From NCBI GenBank assembly GCA_036378675.1, contig DASUWA010000043.1, positions 1-64,000 of the forward strand: a stretch of DNA of 64,000 nucleotides, written 5' to 3'. Each line of letters opens with the position of its first letter. Within the stretch, counting starts at the first letter, position 1. A program made the position numbers and the translations under genes. Below the pieces are notes generated by a model. That model was not told the origin of the DNA and searched no databases. It was given only the letters and a program-made list of their open reading frames with translations. Origin of the DNA: Acidimicrobiales bacterium. GTDB lineage: Bacteria; Actinomycetota; Acidimicrobiia; Acidimicrobiales; Palsa-688. Shown piece by piece: positions 3,150 to 21,517 of the stretch.

Positions 3150-4088
3150 TGGGCCGAGGACGCTCCAATCGGATTATGGATCGGCCCTTCTGCACCGACA
3201 GTCTGCTTCCGAATCAATTGCCGCAGCGCCCTCCGGGCTCCCTTGAGGTGTGTCCCGATGGCCAATTTGGGCTTTGGGATGGTTAGTGCTGGCGCGGGCT
3301 TGGCCGGTTCAAGCACGGAAAGATCTCGATCCCCCATGAGCGCCCGACCTATGGTTCTGCTCTTCGCGGGGGTTCGGATCCAGGACTCGTGGAAAGAACT
3401 CGAGTACTGCGTCCGAACCGGAGAGCCGGCGTTCCGAAAGCGGGGCGTAACCGACCCCTTCGCCGAGATCGCCCAGGACCCCGACGACGCTGCCACCTTC
3501 GACGCAGCCATGGCGTCGGGAACCCGTCTCACCGCGCTGGCGGTAGCCGCGACCTACGACTTCTCGCCGACGGTCAAAGTCGTCGACGTCGCTGGTGGCA
3601 ATGGTGCCCTTTTGGTCGGCATCTTGGGAGCTCATCCGCATCTTGAGGGCATCGTGTTCGACAAGCCGCTGGTGGCCACCCGAGCGAGCGATGAGATCGC
3701 CGCCGCCGGACTCGCTGACCGGTGTCGTGCGCTCGGCGGCGACTTCTTCGATGATGTGCCTTCCGGTGGCGATGCTTATCTGCTGAAGCATGTCATCCAT
3801 GACTGGGCCGACGAACGGGCGATCGCCATCCTTCGCAACTGCCACCGCGAGATGAAGCCGGGTGCCAAGCTGCTCGTTATCGAAGGTGTCTATCCGGACC
3901 GGATCGATGAGTCGCTCGAGAGCCGCGGTGCGGCCGCCAACGACGTCAACATGCTCGTGAGTACCGGGGGCCGGCAGCGCTCAGAGGCCGAATTCCGCTC
4001 GCTCTACGACGCTGCCGGGTTCACCTTGAGCCGGATCATCCCAACTCCGGCCATGGTCAGCATCATTGAGGGTGTGCCTAGCAAATAG
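3150..4088 (+). pseudogene. SAM-dependent O-methyltransferase with degraded 5' part
   Basis: The C-terminal two thirds is a good member of the acetylserotonin/hydroxyneurosporene O-methyltransferase family: VVDVAGGNGALLVGI (SAM motif I), GDFFDDVPSGGDAYLLKHVIHDW with the catalytic-type His-Asp, and the family ending VSIIEGVPSK. The N-terminal dimerisation/winged-helix half is not continuous. Matching pieces appear in different frames: a CPDGQFGL-like piece ends at 3286 in one frame, and the downstream piece from about 3290 (GAGLAGSS, then VRTGEPAF) is in another. I read this as one or more frameshifts between about 3170 and 3290. A shorter active protein from ATG 3337 is possible but would lack the dimer domain. 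The first 84 bases of the gap after the sigma gene hold nothing else. Confidence 0.6.
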
Positions 4089-4230
4089 GCCCTGGGAGTC
4101 GGCGTCGATCAGCCACTGCGCACCTCGGGAGTACAGGTGGCGCATCGTCCGCTCGTCGTGATCGATCAGATCAAGCTCGGCGAGTTTTGTTGGTAGCGTC
4201 CGAGCGGTGCCGGGAGCAGCCACCACCCCC

Positions 4231-4370
4231 ATGATGCGCGCCGCCGTCTATCGCGGCGAGCACACAGTCGTGATCGAAAAGATCCCTGTACCGGAGCTCG
4301 AACCAACGAAGGTATTGCTCGAGATCAGCCACTGCGAGATCTGCGGGAGCGACCTCCACATGTCTCGAAG
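4231..4370 (+). pseudogene. Zinc-type alcohol dehydrogenase (MDR), N-terminal remnant
   Basis: From ATG 4231 or 4234 about 45 residues read MRAAVYRGEHTVVIEKIPVP, continuing through an LLEISHCEICGSDLHM-type segment. This is the start of a medium-chain dehydrogenase including the C-x-x-C/GSD catalytic-zinc region. Homology stops abruptly after SDLHM near 4365; the frame continues to 4521 with arginine-rich non-homologous sequence. The rest of the roughly 340-residue enzyme is missing, so this is a truncated remnant. The 120 bp between it and the methyltransferase contains no recognisable gene. Confidence 0.65.
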
Positions 4371-4491
4371 CTCCGGTTCGCGGGTGCACATAATCACGTC
4401 GATCGCAGCCCGAGCACGTGCGCGCGAATCGGCGATAAGCGTCACCCGTGTTCCTCCGGCACTCCGTCGCGACCAGCGCCGAATGTCAGGG

Positions 4492-4890
4492 CTAAGGGAG
4501 GTGAAGGGTTCCGACAGGTAGACCGGGTGCGTTCACTAGGTGGCCATCGTCAGTCAGAACCTTCGCGTCGAGATGCTCGGCCAAGGCGACATACAGGGCG
4601 TCAGCGACGGTCAGATTGAACCTGAGACGCCATGCGTCGTCGAGCAGGCCCCGAACCTGGGCGACCCGCAGGGGCCACGTCTTCAACTCGGCCACTGCTG
4701 TACCGATGCCGTCTGTCGGCAGGACTGCGTTCAGTTCCCAGCGGCGAAGGACCGCCCCGCACTCCACGAAGAAGTGATCAGGAACCCAGGGAACACTGTC
4801 GGTGGGTAGTAGACCTCGAAGTGCTCGGCCACGCATCGTGTCGGCCACCAGCTCCACCCCGGCCGAGGCGTCGATGACGACCGGTGTCAC
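4492..4890 (-). CDS. vapC: PIN-domain toxin (VapC family)
   Basis: 132 residues, a normal VapC length. The conserved acidic residues of the PIN fold are visible: the first Asp in MTPVVIDASAGVEL, a Glu in HFFVECGAVLRR, an Asp in LTVADALYVALAEHLDA, and the final Asp pair in VLTDDGHL. The family members are Mg-dependent ribonucleases that cut tRNA or rRNA. The start overlaps the stop of the upstream 60-residue protein by ATGA, the usual toxin-antitoxin arrangement. It lies in a patch of mixed-orientation accessory genes, which suits a mobile stabilising module. Confidence 0.88.
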   Translation of the reverse strand: MTPVVIDASAGVELVADTMRGRALRGLLPTDSVPWVPDHFFVECGAVLRRWELNAVLPTDGIGTAVAELKTWPLRVAQVRGLLDDAWRLRFNLTVADALYVALAEHLDAKVLTDDGHLVNAPGLPVGTLHLP

Positions 4891-5069
4891 GCTTCGCCGA
4901 GGGCACGAACCTCAGCCAAGGTCTCGGCTGCCCGCACGGCCGGGCTGGCCGGCTCCCCGCTCTGGCGGTGGTCCAACCAGGCGCGAAAGGTCTCGGCGCT
5001 GACCTCATCGTCTGGATTCGTGACGACAACAGCGGGATCGCTGGGCAGGTCAGCTGCATGGCGTGCCAT
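4887..5069 (-). CDS. Small VapB-like antitoxin
   Basis: 60 residues, acidic, beginning MARHAADLPSDPAVVV and ending in an alanine/glutamate helix (AVRAAETLAEVRALGEA). I do not see a sharp ribbon-helix-helix or AbrB motif, so assignment rests on size, charge and the 4-bp overlap with the PIN toxin. ATG at 5069 is the only in-frame start. A different-frame ATG at 5077 is not used by this protein. The first copy of a 28-bp repeat lies about 40 bp upstream, in what would be its promoter region. Confidence 0.7.
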   Translation of the reverse strand: MARHAADLPSDPAVVVTNPDDEVSAETFRAWLDHRQSGEPASPAVRAAETLAEVRALGEA

Positions 5070-5107
5070 ACCGCCATGGTACCGACGGCCTGAGACTTGG
5101 TAGCGAT

Positions 5108-5135
5108 CAGAACATCAGCGCATCTAGTTATGGCC
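5108..5135 (+). repeat. 28-bp direct repeat, copy 1
   Basis: The sequence begins CAGAACATCAGCGCATC and ends AGTTATGGCC. It matches 6972-6999 at 25 of 28 positions in the same orientation. It lies between the vapBC-like pair and the 3' end of the amidohydrolase. A short TCGGCGATC follows at 5169-5177, and the same 9-mer follows copy 2 at 7025-7033. It is not a recognised integron or transposon site to me. Confidence 0.7.
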
Positions 5136-5193
5136 AAAAGCCGAGGGCGTCGAACTCGAGCGCCAGACTCGGCGATCCGGCTCGTGCAGGAAG

Positions 5194-6249
5194 TCAGCGC
5201 AACCGTCGCCCGGCGATGACGACTGCTGCCGGACGCCGGAGTTCTGATGGGTCGTCACGGGGATCGTGGTGGTAGGTGACGATGTCGGCGCGCTCGTCTT
5301 GGGGGTTGATGAAACGGCGCGGCCACGCGCTGGCGGCCGCTAAGGCCTGGGCTGGGTCTAAACCCATTTCGGCGAGTAGGGCGACCTCTTCAGGAATCGA
5401 GCCGACCACGTCCGTCCCTGCCAGCACGGGCACTCCCGCCCGAACCGCATGCACCAACAACTCCGGGAGACGAGATCGAGTCTCGCGTGCCCGCTCCCGA
5501 CGATCAGGCGGAGCATCGACATCTTCGGCAGCGGCGAGCATCGCACACAGTGTCGGCGTTCAGGCCACGCCGAGACCACCCATATCCGAGATGGTCTGCT
5601 CATCAAGACCCGGCCCGTGCTCAATCGAATCAACTCCCGCCGCAACCAGAGGGGCAAGCCCGGGCAACGTGGCGTGCACCGCAACCCGGGCCCCTAACTG
5701 GTGGACGGCCTGGCATAACTGCGCGATCAGTTCAACCGGATAGGTCGGGGCCACATCGGTGAAGGTCGGGACGTGAGGAAAATCAGCGATCACTTTCACC
5801 CAGGCGGCCCCGCGCCGTACCTCAGCAAGCGCCGAGTCGACCAGGTCCGCCTCCCCGACGGGTTCCACAAGCAACTCCGGGAAATACCGATCCGGTGGTG
5901 CGAGGAATCGACCCGCCGCTCGGACCGCCGGCAAACCCTCCACCCCCGATAGTTCGAGGATGAGCCCACCCGGAGAGCCCACATCCCGTATCAATGTCAC
6001 CCCTGTCTCGGCCCAAGCGACCAGACTTGCCCGCGCTTGCTCTAAGTCAAGGGCCACCGGACCGTCTGGCCCCCTTCCCACCGCCGGGTGAGAATGCGCA
6101 TCCACCAAACCAGCCAACACGAATCGACCCGGCAGCGCCTCTGCGTCACCGATCGGCTGCTCGGACCACTTGCCGTCCTGACCGACCCACCACGCCCTGG
6201 CTTGGTCACCGAACGGCAACTCGATCCCGTTTACCGCCCAGCTGACCAC
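5194..6249 (-). pseudogene. Metal-dependent amidohydrolase interrupted by one in-frame TGA
   Basis: GTG 6249 starts a 351-codon frame with the amidohydrolase metal motif VDAHSHP near residue 50, the HATLPGL/GVDSIEHGPG motifs in the middle and the late VLAGTDVVGSIPEEVALLAEMG and ADIV motifs. The only interruption is TGA at 5562-5560, in the phrase GLGVA-stop-TPTLCAMLAA. Relatives usually have Trp there (GVAWxPTL), so TGG to TGA is the simplest explanation. Reading frame and homology are intact on both sides. Without readthrough the product loses about 120 residues including the late metal Asp. An assembly error cannot be excluded. Confidence 0.8.
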
Positions 6250-6378
6250 AGCTCCAGCATCGCGCCAGATCAGCAGCGCCTGCGATTACGCACCCGGCCC
6301 GCCGGAACACACCGATTCGGCGCCTTCAGTGGGCTCCTGAGCCGTTCGTCGTTTCACCCTGGTCCCCTGGAGGCAGGG

Positions 6379-6969
6379 ATGCAAGCCCACGCGACGAACG
6401 TCAAGTTGGACATGACCCGCGGCAGCCTCCCGAGAGCCGAGCGCCATAGGCGCTTTCGATTCAGGGTCGTCGCCGCGGCCCTGATACTTGCCGCTGGCGG
6501 ATGCGCCTCATCCCGAAATGCATACCCGGAACGCGCACCAGAGCTCTCATCCTGGCTGTATCTCGATTCGACACAGGTGCGAGCCGGGACACCGATCAAT
6601 GGCACACTCATCGTCACCAACTCCACAAAGCACACCATCGGCGCGCCTCCGGGCTGCGCCACCAGCTACGAGGTCGTGCTTACCAGCTCGAGTTACCACC
6701 CCATGGTGGCGTGGCCAGCCGTCTGCGCGTACAACAGACGTAGCGCCATCTCCTTCCATCCAGGGGACACCAAGATTGCGATCAAGGTCCAAACGACCTA
6801 CTTGGCCTGCTCACAACAGCCAACATCAGGTTCAGTCACGCCCATGTGTGATGGGGGCGGCCAGCTACCCCCTTTGCAAGCTGGCATTTACTACACCGAC
6901 CTGGTGAGCAGCGGGAACTTCCTCCTTGTATGCCCCCCGGTCCAGGTGACGTTGCTCAGCCCAACTTGA
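6379..6969 (+). CDS. Putative secreted lipoprotein
   Basis: 196 residues. ATG 6379 is chosen because GGAGG lies at 6369-6373, 5 bp upstream. The N-terminus has a basic region (RAERHRRFRFR), a hydrophobic stretch VVAAALILAAGG and a Cys, a somewhat non-canonical lipobox. The mature part begins with an extended Ser-rich stretch and contains PINGTLIVTNSTKHTIG, which suggests an immunoglobulin-like beta fold, and several cysteines that could pair outside the cell. Function is unknown. It is divergent from the amidohydrolase and is followed 2 bp after its stop by repeat copy 2. Confidence 0.7.
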   Translation: MQAHATNVKLDMTRGSLPRAERHRRFRFRVVAAALILAAGGCASSRNAYPERAPELSSWLYLDSTQVRAGTPINGTLIVTNSTKHTIGAPPGCATSYEVVLTSSSYHPMVAWPAVCAYNRRSAISFHPGDTKIAIKVQTTYLACSQQPTSGSVTPMCDGGGQLPPLQAGIYYTDLVSSGNFLLVCPPVQVTLLSPT

Positions 6970-6971
6970 AA

Positions 6972-6999
6972 CAGAACATGAGCGCATCCAGTTACGGCC
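6972..6999 (+). repeat. 28-bp direct repeat, copy 2
   Basis: The sequence starts CAGAACATGAGCGCATCC and ends AGTTACGGCC, differing from 5108-5135 at three positions only. It lies immediately after the lipoprotein stop, 41 bp before the stop of the next, oppositely oriented gene. A weaker relative (CGCATCCGATTAT) begins at 8531, 3 bp after the stop of the last membrane-protein gene. Confidence 0.7.
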
Positions 7000-7039
7000 G
7001 CGACATGGGCGAGGACGCGAGATATCGGCGATCGGGGTT

Positions 7040-7390
7040 TCAGCCCGTTTCGGCTCCCACGTCTGGGCGATGGGGTATTCGCAGAAGGGCAACCGACAGA
7101 GCCGCCCATACGAGGATCAGCCCAACCCACACAAGGAGCTGCTGCCAACCGGAGAGGTCTGGTCCGACTCGTGACCCGAGAATCCCCACGTTCCAACTCG
7201 TGGGAGGTGAGGACGGCTGCGAAGGGCTAAGGAAGCTGCCATATTCGATACCCCCGGTGCCATAGATGCGGTTTCCGGAAAGCCCGAGGGTCGAGACATA
7301 GACGCCCACAGCAAGAAGGGCGAGAGCTAGCGAGACAACCAGGACTACTCGCTGACCGATTCCGAGGCGACCAAGCAGCGGCACGTCCAT
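7040..7390 (-). CDS. Small membrane protein with two transmembrane helices
   Basis: 116 residues. Hydrophobic segments at about residues 13-35 (QRVVLVVSLALALLAVGVYV) and 83-103 (LLVWVGLILVWAALSVALL) flank a loop rich in Gly, Ser and Pro that probably faces outside. No family recognised. It stands alone in opposite orientation to the two membrane-protein genes that follow. Confidence 0.6.
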   Translation of the reverse strand: MDVPLLGRLGIGQRVVLVVSLALALLAVGVYVSTLGLSGNRIYGTGGIEYGSFLSPSQPSSPPTSWNVGILGSRVGPDLSGWQQLLVWVGLILVWAALSVALLRIPHRPDVGAETG

Positions 7391-7499
7391 ATTGTTCTCG
7401 CGCTCCGGCGATCCTTTGGTTGACGGTTGGGGACGGGCGCGTGATTCGATCCTATGCGCTTCCGCGGCGTGTCATCTCAATGTCGTATCGTCTTAGCCC

Positions 7500-7976
7500 G
7501 TGTCTGTCGAGGACCCCCTGGGGAGGGTACGGCCGACGGAGGTTCTTGGTCGGTTCACCCTGCCTGTAGGGGCGGCCCTTCTTGTTGGTGGGTTGGCGAC
7601 CGTGGGAGTCCAAGTCAAGAACGTCATCGACTTCTTCTTCGGCCCGGTCGGCGGCCGTCTCGTGTCGATCTCCGGGATCGTGAGGCTGCCCACAGCTCTT
7701 TGTTTGCTTGGATCTGTGTTGGTTCTGATGATGGACGGGGGCCGACGGTTACGAGCACTAGCTTGCGTGCTAGGGGCGGCGACGGGTTTGATCTTGATCG
7801 GGCTCAGCATTGTGGGGCTAGTGGGAGTTGTCGAGTTGGCGACCCCCGAGCACGGTCACAGTGCCATCTTGAAAGCCTCAGATGCTGCGTCGCAAGCAGT
7901 CGGATATGTCACGATTCTTGCCTTGGCCGCAGCCTTCCTCGTCTTGGCCTCAATGTTGTTGAGGCAAAGAGCGTGA
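7500..7976 (+). CDS. Membrane protein with about four transmembrane helices
   Basis: 158 residues from GTG 7500. Hydrophobic segments lie at about 20-42, 56-78, 85-110 and 130-153. It has no enzymatic motif and I do not recognise a family. The gene overlaps the next by GTGA, so the two are likely co-translated and may form one membrane complex (inference). Confidence 0.65.
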   Translation: MSVEDPLGRVRPTEVLGRFTLPVGAALLVGGLATVGVQVKNVIDFFFGPVGGRLVSISGIVRLPTALCLLGSVLVLMMDGGRRLRALACVLGAATGLILIGLSIVGLVGVVELATPEHGHSAILKASDAASQAVGYVTILALAAAFLVLASMLLRQRA

Positions 7977-8527
7977 CCGACAGCGACGAGCCTTCTCTGC
8001 TGTTCTTGCGACCGGTTTCAGGTCTTGTAGCCAGTCTTCTCCTTTTGGCAGTGGTCGCGGCGATGGTGGCGGCTTTACTTCAGACGATCAGCCTGACCAT
8101 CACAAACCCGGTCCCCGTCGATGGCTCTAGCTTCTCCTTCATTGGCTCACCGCCCGTGGACTTCGCGGATCGGCTGAGCGTCTTCACTTCTGCCGGCACG
8201 AATCTGACCATTGTGTTGATGCTTATCGCAGCGTCCGTGCTAAGCAGCCTCCAGCAGCCAAACCTGTGGCGTCGAGTGACTGTTACCTCAGTGGAGCTTC
8301 TCGTGGTCATCGTCGTGGTGTCTGACATCGTCATGGCGATCGAAGTGGGGGTCAGCAACGGCCCACTCTTGTTCCCAGGCGTTGACACCACAACACGAGC
8401 GACCGCAATCGTCGGCCTCCTAGCCCCTGCTGCTGTTGCCTCCGCTGCGGGTTTGGTCGCTTTGCTCGGGTCCCGTCACAACGCTCAAAAACACGAACCC
8501 GCCTTGTCTCCGACTGACCCCGAATAA
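7973..8527 (+). CDS. Membrane protein with about four transmembrane helices
   Basis: 184 residues. GTG 7973 overlaps the previous stop by 4 bp and precedes TDSDEPSLLFLRPVSG. Hydrophobic segments include ASLLLLAVVAAMVAALL, a pair in the middle (TIVLMLIAASVLSSL and VELLVVIVVVSDIVMAI) and AIVGLLAPAAVASAAGLVALL near the end. Topology resembles its partner at 7500. No known family. The frame is open far upstream across the partner gene, but that part is a shadow. Confidence 0.65.
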   Translation: MTDSDEPSLLFLRPVSGLVASLLLLAVVAAMVAALLQTISLTITNPVPVDGSSFSFIGSPPVDFADRLSVFTSAGTNLTIVLMLIAASVLSSLQQPNLWRRVTVTSVELLVVIVVVSDIVMAIEVGVSNGPLLFPGVDTTTRATAIVGLLAPAAVASAAGLVALLGSRHNAQKHEPALSPTDPE

Positions 8528-9183
8528 CAACGCATCCGATTATTTGTCGCCGGAGATCAGGGCCCACCGACCGAACGCCGGAGCTCGACACCGACCCGCT
8601 CGAGATCGCCGACTACGAGGTGTGTCCTGAAAGGGGAGTGGTGACGATGTAGAAGGTTGTTGTCACGAGCCGTGCTGTGCTGGTGATGGAGGTTGGCCCT
8701 CCGGGATCGCCGATCAGGCGGAGATCCCAAACCACCGCAAGCTGCTGCGTTTAAGAGGCGTGGTGGTGAGCGTTGCGGAAAAGGCCCCGTGTGAGGGGTC
8801 AGGTGTGCGACATGAAGACGAACGTGAGTGAACCACTGATGACGCATCGAAACGGCGAACGATGACATCGAAACCGGGGAATCTCGTAGTTCCCGGGATG
8901 AAGGCGTGCCCGCTGGTCGGGTGGGCCGGGGTCAGGAGGCTGCCTGGTGGCTGTCTTGACGGTGTCCGGTGTAGAGGTGGCGTGAGCGTGTCGCAGGCGC
9001 TGGCATGGAACAGGAGAACCTGTCGCCCCGATAGTGACGGCCAGTCGAAATGGGTGTTGTCGGCCCCCTGGTCGCGAGAGGGAGAACGCCAAGGGAATAC
9101 CACCCGGAGGCGGAGAGTACCGATGCGGGGCACAGGGGCGGACCGGCCCGTAGTAGCGGTGAAGGCTCTGTAATGGGGCTGGA

Positions 9184-10518
9184 GTGACGGGGCCGGGCGG
9201 ATCAGATCGACCGGAGGCCAACCCTGTGGGGGAGGAGCCGACGGAGGGATCGAAGCCTACGAAGCGGAAGTCGTTCGACATCGAAAAGCGCCTGGTCTTC
9301 CGGGCGTGGGAGAAGGTCCGGGCCAATGCTGGGGCGCCGGGCGTGGACGCCGTCAGCATCGACGTGTTTCAGGAGCGGTGGGGGGACATCCTCTACAAGC
9401 TGTGGAACCGGATGAGCTCGGGGAGTTACTTCCCGGGCCCGGTGCGGGCGGTGGAGATACCGAAAGATCATGGGGCGGGGGTCAGGGTCCTTGGTGTGCC
9501 CAACGTGGCTGACCGGGTGGCCCAGACCGCAGCAGCGATGCTGCTGGAAGACAAGCTGGAACCGATCTTCCACCCTGACAGCTACGGCTACCGCCCAGGG
9601 CGCTCCGCCCAGGACGCGGTCGAGACCTGTCGAAGGCGGTGTTGGGAGCACGACTGGGTGATCGACTGCGACATCCGGGCGTTCTTCGACTCCGTCCCCC
9701 ATGACCTTCTCATGAAGGCGGTCGCTCACTACACCAGCGAAAGATGGGTGCTGCTCTACATCGAACGGTGGCTCAAAGCCCCCATGCAGATGCCGGACGG
9801 CACCCTGGTCCCCAGGGAGGAAGGAACCCCGCAAGGGTCGCCGATCTCACCGGTGTTGGCCAACCTGTTCATGCACTACGCGCTCGATCGTTGGATGGAC
9901 CGGGAACACCCGGGCTGTCCGTTCGAGCGTTACGCGGATGACATCGTGATCCACTGCGACAACCAGACCCAAGCCGAAAATCTTCGGGCCAAGGTCGCCG
10001 AACGGCTCGAGACGGTTGGTCTCGAACTGCACCCCGACAAGACCCGGATCGTGTACTGCAAAGACTCGAACCGGCCCGGAACCTCGGAGCATGTCAGCTT
10101 CGACTTTCTCGGGTTCACCTTCCGGGGGCGCCTGCTCAAAGGCCCATACGGACACTTCACAGGGTTCGTGCCGGCCATAAGCAGTAAAGCACGCAAGGCG
10201 ATCGGCCAGAAGATCAGGACTTGGCATCTCAACCGTCGCAGCTGGGCGGACCTCTCCAGCCTCGCTACCGACATCAACCCGGTGACCACAGGCTGGATCA
10301 ACTACTACGGAGTCTTCTACCGCTCCGAGTTGCGCTTCCTCGCATGGCGCATCAACGACCACCTCGTCAGATGGGCCATGCAGAAGTTCAAACGATTCCG
10401 AAAGCGATACGCCAGAGCATTCGACTGGCTGGTTCGTGTACACCACCACCAGCCAGCCCTATTCGCTCACTGGCAACTCGCCCCACCGCTTCGAGGCCGA
10501 CCCGTGGGAGCCGGATGA
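9184..10518 (+). CDS. ltrA: Group II intron-encoded reverse transcriptase/maturase
   Basis: 444 residues, starting at the GTG/TTG region near 9184 and homologous from about residue 28 (KSFDIEKRLVFRAWEKV). RT motifs are complete: LGVPNVADRVAQ, SYGYRPGRSAQDAV, DCDIRAFFDSVPHDLL, GTPQGSPISPVLANL and the catalytic YADD at about residues 250-253. The maturase (X) domain follows with INPVTTGWINYYGVFYRS. There is no C-terminal HNH endonuclease domain. The protein should splice the intron and prime retrohoming. Its stop codon falls inside domain V of the intron RNA, a feature of some bacterial classes. Class assignment is left open. Confidence 0.92.
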   Translation: MTGPGGSDRPEANPVGEEPTEGSKPTKRKSFDIEKRLVFRAWEKVRANAGAPGVDAVSIDVFQERWGDILYKLWNRMSSGSYFPGPVRAVEIPKDHGAGVRVLGVPNVADRVAQTAAAMLLEDKLEPIFHPDSYGYRPGRSAQDAVETCRRRCWEHDWVIDCDIRAFFDSVPHDLLMKAVAHYTSERWVLLYIERWLKAPMQMPDGTLVPREEGTPQGSPISPVLANLFMHYALDRWMDREHPGCPFERYADDIVIHCDNQTQAENLRAKVAERLETVGLELHPDKTRIVYCKDSNRPGTSEHVSFDFLGFTFRGRLLKGPYGHFTGFVPAISSKARKAIGQKIRTWHLNRRSWADLSSLATDINPVTTGWINYYGVFYRSELRFLAWRINDHLVRWAMQKFKRFRKRYARAFDWLVRVHHHQPALFAHWQLAPPLRGRPVGAG

Positions 10519-10580
10519 CGGGAGACTGTCACGTCCGGTTCTGAGAGAGCCGGGGGGTGAAACTCCCCCCGGCCACTCGC
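10508..10580 (+). ncRNA. Group II intron domains V and VI
   Basis: Domain V reads GAGCCGGATGACGGGAGACT and closes with CACGTCCGGTTCT, the standard catalytic hairpin with its AGC triad near the 5' side and a short tetraloop-like GAGA turn. Domain VI follows as GCCGGGGGG/CCCCCCGGC around 10549-10573 with TGAAA in the loop and the unpaired A expected for the branch point. These features fix the strand and 3' end of the intron. Confidence 0.85.
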
Positions 10581-10725
10581 CCGGGTGGCGAAGGTTGTTC
10601 GCCGCCTTGGGATAACACGGTGCGCCGGCGTTATGGCGCTGTCGCCGGGACGACAGAAGGCCTTGACTGGTGCCCGGCTTGGGTGTACTCCTTGGCGTCG
10701 GCAAGCTGATCCAGGAGGGGAAACG

Positions 10726-19684: not shown

Positions 19685-21517
19685 CTAACGGACGCCTTCG
19701 GAGTCAAGGTCTTCCGCCTGGGAGATGGCCCACGCCGCGTTGATTAGCCCGATGTGGCTGAAGGCTTGCGGGAAATTGCCCAAGAGCTCCCCGGAGCTTG
19801 GGTCGACCTCTTCGGATAGCAGGCCCACATCGTTGACGAAGGCGGCGGCGCGTTCGAAGACCTGGCGCGCCCGGACTGGCTGGCCGGCCAGGGCCATCGC
19901 CTGGGCCAGCCAGAACGTGCAGAGCAGGAAGGTGCCTTCCTCGCCTTGTAGGCCGTCGTGGGAACGGTAGCGGTAGACGAGGCCCCCCTCGTCGGTGAGG
20001 CGGGATTCGGTGGCGTCGATGGTGGCCAGGATTCTCGGGTGGTCGGGGGGCAGGAAGCCGACTAGGGGCATCATCAGATTGGAGGCGTCGAGGTCGTCCG
20101 ACCCGAACGACTGGGTAAAGGCTTGGGCCTGGTCGCTCCAGCCCTTGGTCATGATGGCGTCGTGAATCTCGTCCTGGATCCGTTTCCAGTCGCCCACCCG
20201 GTCGGTCGCGTCGAGCCGCTCCGCGAGGGCGACAGCCCGCTCCAAGGCGACCCAGCACATCAGCTTGGAGTAGAGGAAATCCCTCGGTTCCCCGCGAATC
20301 TCCCAGATGCCCTGGTCCTTCTCGGTCCAGCGCCGGGCGGCGGCATCGGCGAGGTGGACCAGGAAGCGCTTGGTGGCAGGGGACAGCTCGGCGACCTGGT
20401 CGGAGAGGCGGTAGACGGTGTTGAGTAGTTCGCCGTAGACGTCGAGTTGTCGCTGGCTCCACGCGCCGTTGCCTACCCGCACTGGCGCGGAGTCGCGCCA
20501 GCCGGGCAGATGGGGCAGTTCTCGTTCGGTGAGGTCCCGTTCGCCGCCGATTCCGAACATGATCTGCAGATCGGTGCCGCGCGCTACCGAGGTTGCGGCC
20601 GAGGTGGTCATGTATTCGAAGAATTCGTTGGCCTCGTCCGGGCAAGCCGCTACCCATAGCGCTTCAATGGTGAAGCTCGCGTCGCGCACCCAGGCGAAGC
20701 GGTAATCCCAGTTGCGGTTACCGCCCACGGTCTCGGGCAGCGAGGTGGTGGCCGCCGCGCAGATCGCTCCGGTGGGCTCGAAGGACAGGGCTTGCAAGAC
20801 TCGCCCGCTGTGGTGGACCAGATCGTGCCACGGGCCCTCGTAGGCTTGATGTAGCTCGGACCATGATTCCCAGGCCTTGAGCGTGTCCTCCACGCGCCGG
20901 TGGATCTGGGCCTGGCTCCACACCCGGGCCTGTTTGGGTTCAGCACGTTTGCAGTGGTGCACGGCAAAGCCTGCTGATTCCCCCGACACGAGGCGCACCA
21001 GGCCCGACACCGACGACTCGCCGATAGTGAGCGGGACAGGACCGGACAAAACAAGGACGTCCGAGCCTCCGATTGCACGGACACCTCCGTCGACTGTTTC
21101 GAGCAACGGTTGAATCAGCCCGTACTCCGGGCGGGGGACGTACTCGAATTCCACATCCACTTCGCCCATGACGCAGGTCGCACGGCGCATCAACAGGTGA
21201 GGAGCGTCCTTCCCGAGCTGGTGCCCCCGGTTTCCGTCTCCCATGGCCAGGGCATCGACCACCACCAGGCGGCCTGTCGGGGTGTTGTAGCTGGTCTCCA
21301 GGACCATGCTTCGGTTCAGGTAGCGGCGAGAGATCTCGGTGGCCCGCGCAGCCCGGATCGACCAGTGGCCGGCTTGCTCACCCAGCAGACGCCCGAATAT
21401 CGACGGGCTGTCGAAGCGGGGCAGGCACAGCCAGTCGACCGAACCGTCACGGCTAACCAGCGCGGCGCTGTGACGATCGGAGAGAAGGGCGTAATCCGCG
21501 ATCGGGGTGGTGCTCAT
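19685..21517 (-). CDS. Glycoside hydrolase family 15 protein (glucoamylase/trehalase-like)
   Basis: 610 residues from ATG 21517, preceded by AAGGAG at a good distance; the open frame extends 65 codons further upstream without homology. The N-terminal beta-sandwich domain starts IADYALLSDRHSAALVSRDGSVDWLCLPRFDSPS. The (alpha/alpha)6 catalytic barrel has GNRNWDYRFAWVRDASFTIEALW, with the characteristic WDYRxxWxRD motif, and GEEGTFLLCTFWLAQAMALAG near the C-terminus with the late catalytic Glu. There is no signal peptide, so it acts in the cytoplasm on storage glucans or trehalose, as in mycobacterial trehalases of this family. Substrate specificity is not deducible. Confidence 0.9.
   Translation of the reverse strand: MSTTPIADYALLSDRHSAALVSRDGSVDWLCLPRFDSPSIFGRLLGEQAGHWSIRAARATEISRRYLNRSMVLETSYNTPTGRLVVVDALAMGDGNRGHQLGKDAPHLLMRRATCVMGEVDVEFEYVPRPEYGLIQPLLETVDGGVRAIGGSDVLVLSGPVPLTIGESSVSGLVRLVSGESAGFAVHHCKRAEPKQARVWSQAQIHRRVEDTLKAWESWSELHQAYEGPWHDLVHHSGRVLQALSFEPTGAICAAATTSLPETVGGNRNWDYRFAWVRDASFTIEALWVAACPDEANEFFEYMTTSAATSVARGTDLQIMFGIGGERDLTERELPHLPGWRDSAPVRVGNGAWSQRQLDVYGELLNTVYRLSDQVAELSPATKRFLVHLADAAARRWTEKDQGIWEIRGEPRDFLYSKLMCWVALERAVALAERLDATDRVGDWKRIQDEIHDAIMTKGWSDQAQAFTQSFGSDDLDASNLMMPLVGFLPPDHPRILATIDATESRLTDEGGLVYRYRSHDGLQGEEGTFLLCTFWLAQAMALAGQPVRARQVFERAAAFVNDVGLLSEEVDPSSGELLGNFPQAFSHIGLINAAWAISQAEDLDSEGVR

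Follow-up and report, generated by a model that had tools for sequence, protein, structure and literature searches.

The 64,000-nucleotide stretch analyzed here (the window; positions 1 to 64,000 of contig DASUWA010000043.1 in the Acidimicrobiales bacterium assembly GCA_036378675.1) probably carries a mobile gene-cassette array, whose cassettes are moved at dedicated recombination sites by a tyrosine recombinase of a type that we designate P0001. The system is best read as a cassette platform that resembles an integron, with a recombinase other than IntI and arrays on both sides of it. By computation, the sites have a defined architecture and an array organization, cassettes are shared between genera, and the sites are associated with P0001-type genes in related genomes.

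A sequence-only reading had drawn attention to two 28-bp repeats, at 5108-5135 and 6972-6999, and these do match at 25 of 28 bases and are both followed by TCGGCGATC, at 5169 and 7025. The 28-mer is only the left part of a recombination site of about 50 to 75 bp in all, which runs from CMKAAC (R'') through a left box and a variable middle to the right core TCGGCG and then R' (GHTMKG), with a typical R''-to-core distance of 50-52 or 60-63 bp and a core consensus of CNGAN-TCGGCG-HTMKG. The core arms around TCGGCG (CNGAN and NTCNG) mirror each other, with a correlation of 0.74 in register that falls to about 0 when five other registers are used. R'' is the inverse complement of R', pairing on average at 3.3 of 6 positions in one site class and 3.8 in the other, against no more than 2.0 when the boxes are slid out of register. 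The R''-to-TCGGCG distance of class-1 sites is bimodal, at about 51 and 61 bp (49-53 in 45 of 50 sites, 61-63 in 5, and none between), and the second class has a different left box and distances mostly of 60-63. Spacings near 30, 40, 51, and 61 bp occur, including an inverted site (29-30) and the site at 4389 (40) in the window, and these are steps of approximately one helical turn. A coding explanation for the left box was rejected, because the right box shifts frame between copies.

The joint repeat pattern occurs at exactly two places in the window and is absent from all of 100 shuffles. Searching the whole genome of the window (G000; 75 contigs, 4.1 Mb) with a 31-position and then a 67-position profile recovers about 30 sites at E<0.006, on contigs C22, C57, C40, C43 (the window contig), C39, C16, C8, C33, C23, and C26, with weaker matches on C15; the repeat is thus neither placed at random nor confined to two spots, as its roughly 30 members cluster on certain contigs. 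Among 98 relatives, drawn from a comparison set with one genome per species, strong matches are limited to the Acidimicrobiaceae, an actinobacterial family of acid environments that includes Acidiferrimicrobium sp. IK, and no match better than E=0.001 occurs in genomes from other families of the order. An exact 24-mer of the repeat was not found in viral contigs, and no intact tRNA adjoins the array sites as a possible target. One site, at G000:C16:123815, directly follows sequence resembling a tRNA 3' end (T-arm and acceptor), and an intact tRNA was not found there.

The proposal that the repeats form a recombination-site array is well supported: the copies are numerous and share one orientation per contig, single genes or toxin-antitoxin pairs separate them, and the same cassettes recur in other contexts. 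In a core scan, the sites lie on one strand in 11 of 12 cases on C22 (the exception being within a recombinase gene), 10 of 10 on C57, 6 of 6 on C40, 5 of 5 on C26, and 3 of 3 on C39, and between most of them is one gene, or a small operon or toxin-antitoxin pair, in either orientation. The cargo includes APH-family phosphotransferases, RidA, an epimerase, NUDIX, GNAT, an M50 peptidase, HEPN and nucleotidyltransferase proteins, a Rieske protein, a hydrolase, a nitronate monooxygenase, and PIN toxin pairs. On the short contig C39 (L053 2588-5368; L275), an open reading frame (ORF) for a 926-amino-acid relaxase-helicase, judged by eye to be TrwC/TraA-like, and a tyrosine recombinase adjoin the array.

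Three cassettes are shared. The lipoprotein-like cassette of the window (6354-7000) has 80% DNA identity over 650 bp in another context in genus g8 (G007:C100), a nucleotidyltransferase-like cassette is present on both C22 and C26 of the window's genome (87% identical), and a third is common to G007 and G027 (81% identical). The similarity stops in or beside the site in these pairs, and a further stretch of the window (4688-5092, in the PIN toxin cassette) has 78% identical DNA in G006:C54, beside a P0001-type recombinase.

P0001 itself is a 304-amino-acid Xer-like tyrosine recombinase encoded in an array of G007. It contains, in order, GLRVSE, HTLRH, AASH, and RY, which are predicted to provide the catalytic R, H-x-x-R, H, and Y of tyrosine recombinases. 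Among proteins in the PDB it matches XerD (5e-17), and it scores better to XerD than to the IntI model TIGR02249, for which it reaches 70.8 bits against a cut-off of 265. It was dropped at first, when the class-1 site hidden Markov model (HMM) found few sites beside it, and was reinstated because a core model together with R'' spacing showed flanking sites. Relatives were gathered by protein similarity alone, blind to the sites, and the core model for this flank test was trained without the G007 and G016 loci. Cores near P0001-type genes have the R' side towards the gene in 19 of 19 cases within 400 bp and 31 of 33 within 2 kb; ten facing cores lie 40-100 bp past the stop codon and seven lie 145-205 bp before the start, where the density elsewhere in the same loci predicts 0.14 for each interval. 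Upstream of 21 distinct facing cores, R'' occurs 20 times at 50-52 or 60-63 bp and four times at 49 other distances, repeating the spacing rule in data that were not used to define it. Complete sites are thereby present on both sides of P0001-type genes and face the gene, an arrangement that is only analogous to attI.

We propose that a cassette consists of a small gene, or a pair of genes, together with a single recombination site of about 50 to 75 bp, with the sites of an array all pointing one way. The P0001-type recombinase (about 304 amino acids, Xer-like, and not IntI) would pair sites via their cores, excising cassettes as circles between direct repeats and inserting circles at existing sites. 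In genomes that keep P0001, the recombinase gene lies between two sets of sites facing it, and cassettes could therefore accumulate on both sides. Sites in the window point at each other with no recombinase between them, which suggests a locus that lost its recombinase, and the window may be a remnant or an unassembled part of such a locus.

Several observations weigh against this scheme. A tyrosine recombinase gene beside the repeats had been proposed as a test of a cassette system, and one is found in relatives, as the P0001 type, but not in the assembly of the window: no P0001-type gene is present at E<1e-15 in this genome, which is 97% complete, nor in several site-bearing relatives, including G010 and G013. 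Conversely, several P0001-bearing genomes have no detected class-1 sites, such that the presence of the two is not one-to-one across the family, and many P0001 copies are fragments. It is possible that P0001 is missing from the window's genome because arrays often end at contig ends. The P0001 counts are not fully independent, because the loci share ancestry; this kinship overstates independence somewhat, yet the expected values are far below those observed. The comparison covers one genome per species. Homology also fades after the left box in two of the three shared-cassette pairs, a poor fit to crossover in the core, and the C22/C26 pair has different left boxes ahead of the same cassette start. 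For these reasons the crossover may lie in either the core or the left box, and the boundaries, in three pairs only, would favor the left box.

Of the other explanations, the one that survives best is that P0001 belongs, as integrase, to a separate mobile element that only targets the sites, with a different enzyme moving the cassettes. P0001 is widespread in Acidimicrobiia, G000 lacks it, certain other site-bearing genomes either lack it or have a divergent form, and another recombinase (P0002) is encoded in a G020 array, all of which this explanation would accommodate. We nonetheless consider it unlikely, as P0001 has complete sites to either side, at set distances and invariably oriented towards the gene, whereas P0002-type genes elsewhere lack flanking cores; P0002 was rejected as the array recombinase on this basis. 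P0002 is a 302-amino-acid tyrosine recombinase encoded at 6543-7451 of L112 (G020:C42), with a truncated copy at 3920-4411, and its relatives are present in 7 of 32 family genomes, six of them site bearing, often as several damaged copies.

A second possibility, which we regard as improbable, is that the array is a degraded true integron, that is, a cluster of attC sites lacking an integron integrase (CALIN), with canonical attC sites and an IntI that was lost or lies in an assembly gap. The sequence-only reading had noted that the repeats do not fit the integron attC consensus, and this is correct, although the full site, from R'' through the core to R', does share the attC box layout (R''-L''-variable-L'-R') and its length in outline; the single-gene and toxin-antitoxin cassettes and a group II intron in an inverted site, recalling group IIC-attC introns (PMC7923331), also fit a CALIN. 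However, no IntI (TIGR02249) was found in 32 family genomes at E<=1e-20, with nothing above background in the window's own genome, or in 298 genomes of the order at E<=1e-50, the search of the order having no positive control in the control set of its tool. The R boxes (CMKAAC and GHTMKG) do not fit the attC core sites RYYYAAC and GTTRRRY (PMC3053210). Although the R boxes are inverse complements, an attC-type hairpin receives little or no support from RNAalifold, dinucleotide shuffles, covariation, or swapped halves: there is no consensus structure, the mean fold z is only -0.4, sites fold no better from their own halves than from swapped left and right halves, and one covariation diagonal slightly above 60 permutations is not upheld in the swapped-halves test. 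A different recombinase, P0001, is flanked by the sites.

A third explanation invokes the host Xer system, as for the pdif modules of Acinetobacter. The pdif/dif sites used by XerC/XerD have a 28-bp XerC-6 bp-XerD structure, and adjacent sites alternate in orientation. It is highly doubtful that the candidate here, a single XerC-like protein (G000:C1:48889-49923), shuffles the cassettes, since although it is single copy and 62-78% conserved in most site-bearing genomes, and the core has inverted arms like an Xer site, no core flanks its gene beyond background, it also occurs in G004, G018, and G029, where no sites are detected, and the sites here are direct repeats. Both systems place small gene modules, many of them toxin-antitoxin pairs, between short core sites whose arms are inverted, but the sites here are 50 to 75 bp long and have a further conserved box, and they show no link to the host Xer gene. 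A canonical XerC/XerD-like pair seems to be present in G002, G015, and G017, which have strong PF00589 matches; other family members, including the window's genome, lack such strong matches and have one conserved XerC-like protein of 340 amino acids (L272 in G000).

The window array is summarized in Table 1. The sequence-only reading had overlooked the plus-strand sites at 4389-4439 and 6266-6327 and the inverted site at the intron. Site 1 is less certain than sites 2 to 4, the site HMM finding only its right half (E=2.4). The weaker third copy exists as the left half-site, beginning at 8520 rather than at 8531, as had been reported; similarly, of the two later copies described as lying just after stop codons, the second does start 2 bp after one, and the third box overlaps the stop codon at 8525-8527. 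The PIN toxin and the reverse transcriptase of the group II intron were both correctly recognized. The amidohydrolase-like cassette gene, split in two ORFs, is perhaps a pseudogene. Isolated core-like matches at 21485, 37781, and 38871 lie outside the array and are near the background rate at that score.

Table 1. Features of the cassette array in the window (PWM, position weight matrix).
Feature	Coordinates	Strand	Details
Site 1	4389..4439	+	R'' CATAAT at 4389, core TCGGCG at 4429, short spacing of 40; core PWM 18.6
PIN-domain toxin, cassette gene	4492..4890	-	Pfam PF01850, 5e-9
Putative antitoxin, overlaps PIN toxin gene	4887..5069	-	Overlapping ORF; no Pfam match
Site 2	5108..5179	+	R'' CAGAAC at 5108, core TCGGCG at 5169, spacing 61; E=1.2e-8
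Amidohydrolase-like cassette	5194..6249	-	Two ORFs, 5194-5541 and 5560-6249; weak Amidohydro_3 match below Pfam cut-off
Site 3	6266..6327	+	R'' CAGATC at 6266, core TCGGCG at 6317, spacing 51; E=4.9e-8
Lipoprotein-like cassette gene	6379..6969	+	Same cassette in genus g8 (G007:C100)
Site 4	6972..7035	+	R'' CAGAAC at 6972, core TCGGCG at 7025, spacing 53; E=4.3e-10
Cassette region, three small ORFs	7040..8527	7040-7390 -, 7500-7976 +, 7973-8527 +	No Pfam matches
Site 5, left half-site only, no core behind	8520..8570	+	HMM E=0.024, positions 1-51
Core of inverted site 6	8597..8622	-	TCGGCG at 8613-8608; core PWM 18.3
Group II intron (GTGTG...GGGAT)	8620..10613	+	Rfam group-II-D1D4-2 and Intron_gpII; D5/D6 fold
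Left box remnant of inverted site 6	10614..10641	-	CATAAC at 10635-10630; joined flanks give spacing of 29-30

The group II intron had been thought to end the patch. The intron is real, with a reverse transcriptase/maturase ORF at 9226-10518 that matches RVT_1 and GIIM and a 3' end at 10613 deduced from the fold, but it appears to sit inside inverted site 6: it starts just beside the minus-strand core, and rejoining the flanks without the intron brings CATAAC to within 29-30 bp of TCGGCG. Group IIC-attC introns have GTGYG...AY ends and lie inside attC, antisense to the site (PMC7923331), and the window intron has such ends and apparently lies antisense within a cassette site; this likeness is one of ends and position, and the host site differs in not being attC. 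A second copy of the same intron, at G000:C40:34271-34586, is 88% identical over the first 249 bp, runs off the contig end, and, unlike group IIC-attC introns, starts close behind an array site whose orientation it shares.

As in integrons, the arrays consist of single-gene cassettes, each a gene followed by one site; the sites share a single orientation, a tyrosine recombinase gene adjoins a site, some cassettes are toxin-antitoxin pairs, and group II introns lie at sites. Unlike integrons, the recombinase is not IntI, no covarying hairpin is found, the spacing changes in steps of about 10 bp, cassette genes are in mixed orientation, and sites flank the recombinase on both sides, facing it. 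The window resembles a CALIN in having a cassette array without an integrase in the same assembly, and differs in that its sites are not canonical attC and, in relatives, sites flank a recombinase other than IntI. With IntegronFinder 2.0, Actinobacteria are reported to have few CALIN and not one complete integron (PMC9024848). An independent origin is a tentative idea, to which we give somewhat less than even weight, whereby a cassette-capture platform arose in Acidimicrobiia apart from integrons, with an Xer-like recombinase amid two converging arrays acting on double-stranded sites whose boxes are in helical phase (near 30, 40, 51, and 61 bp).

Integrons are regarded as the bacterial cassette-capturing system and are reported to be essentially absent from Actinobacteria (PMC9024848). 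If the platform proposed here is real, an unrelated recombinase builds the same arrays, and cassette capture would have either evolved more than once or diverged far beyond what existing tools detect. The cassette genes lie in mixed orientation, which raises the question of how they are expressed, and the site model and the P0001 protein together make the system searchable.

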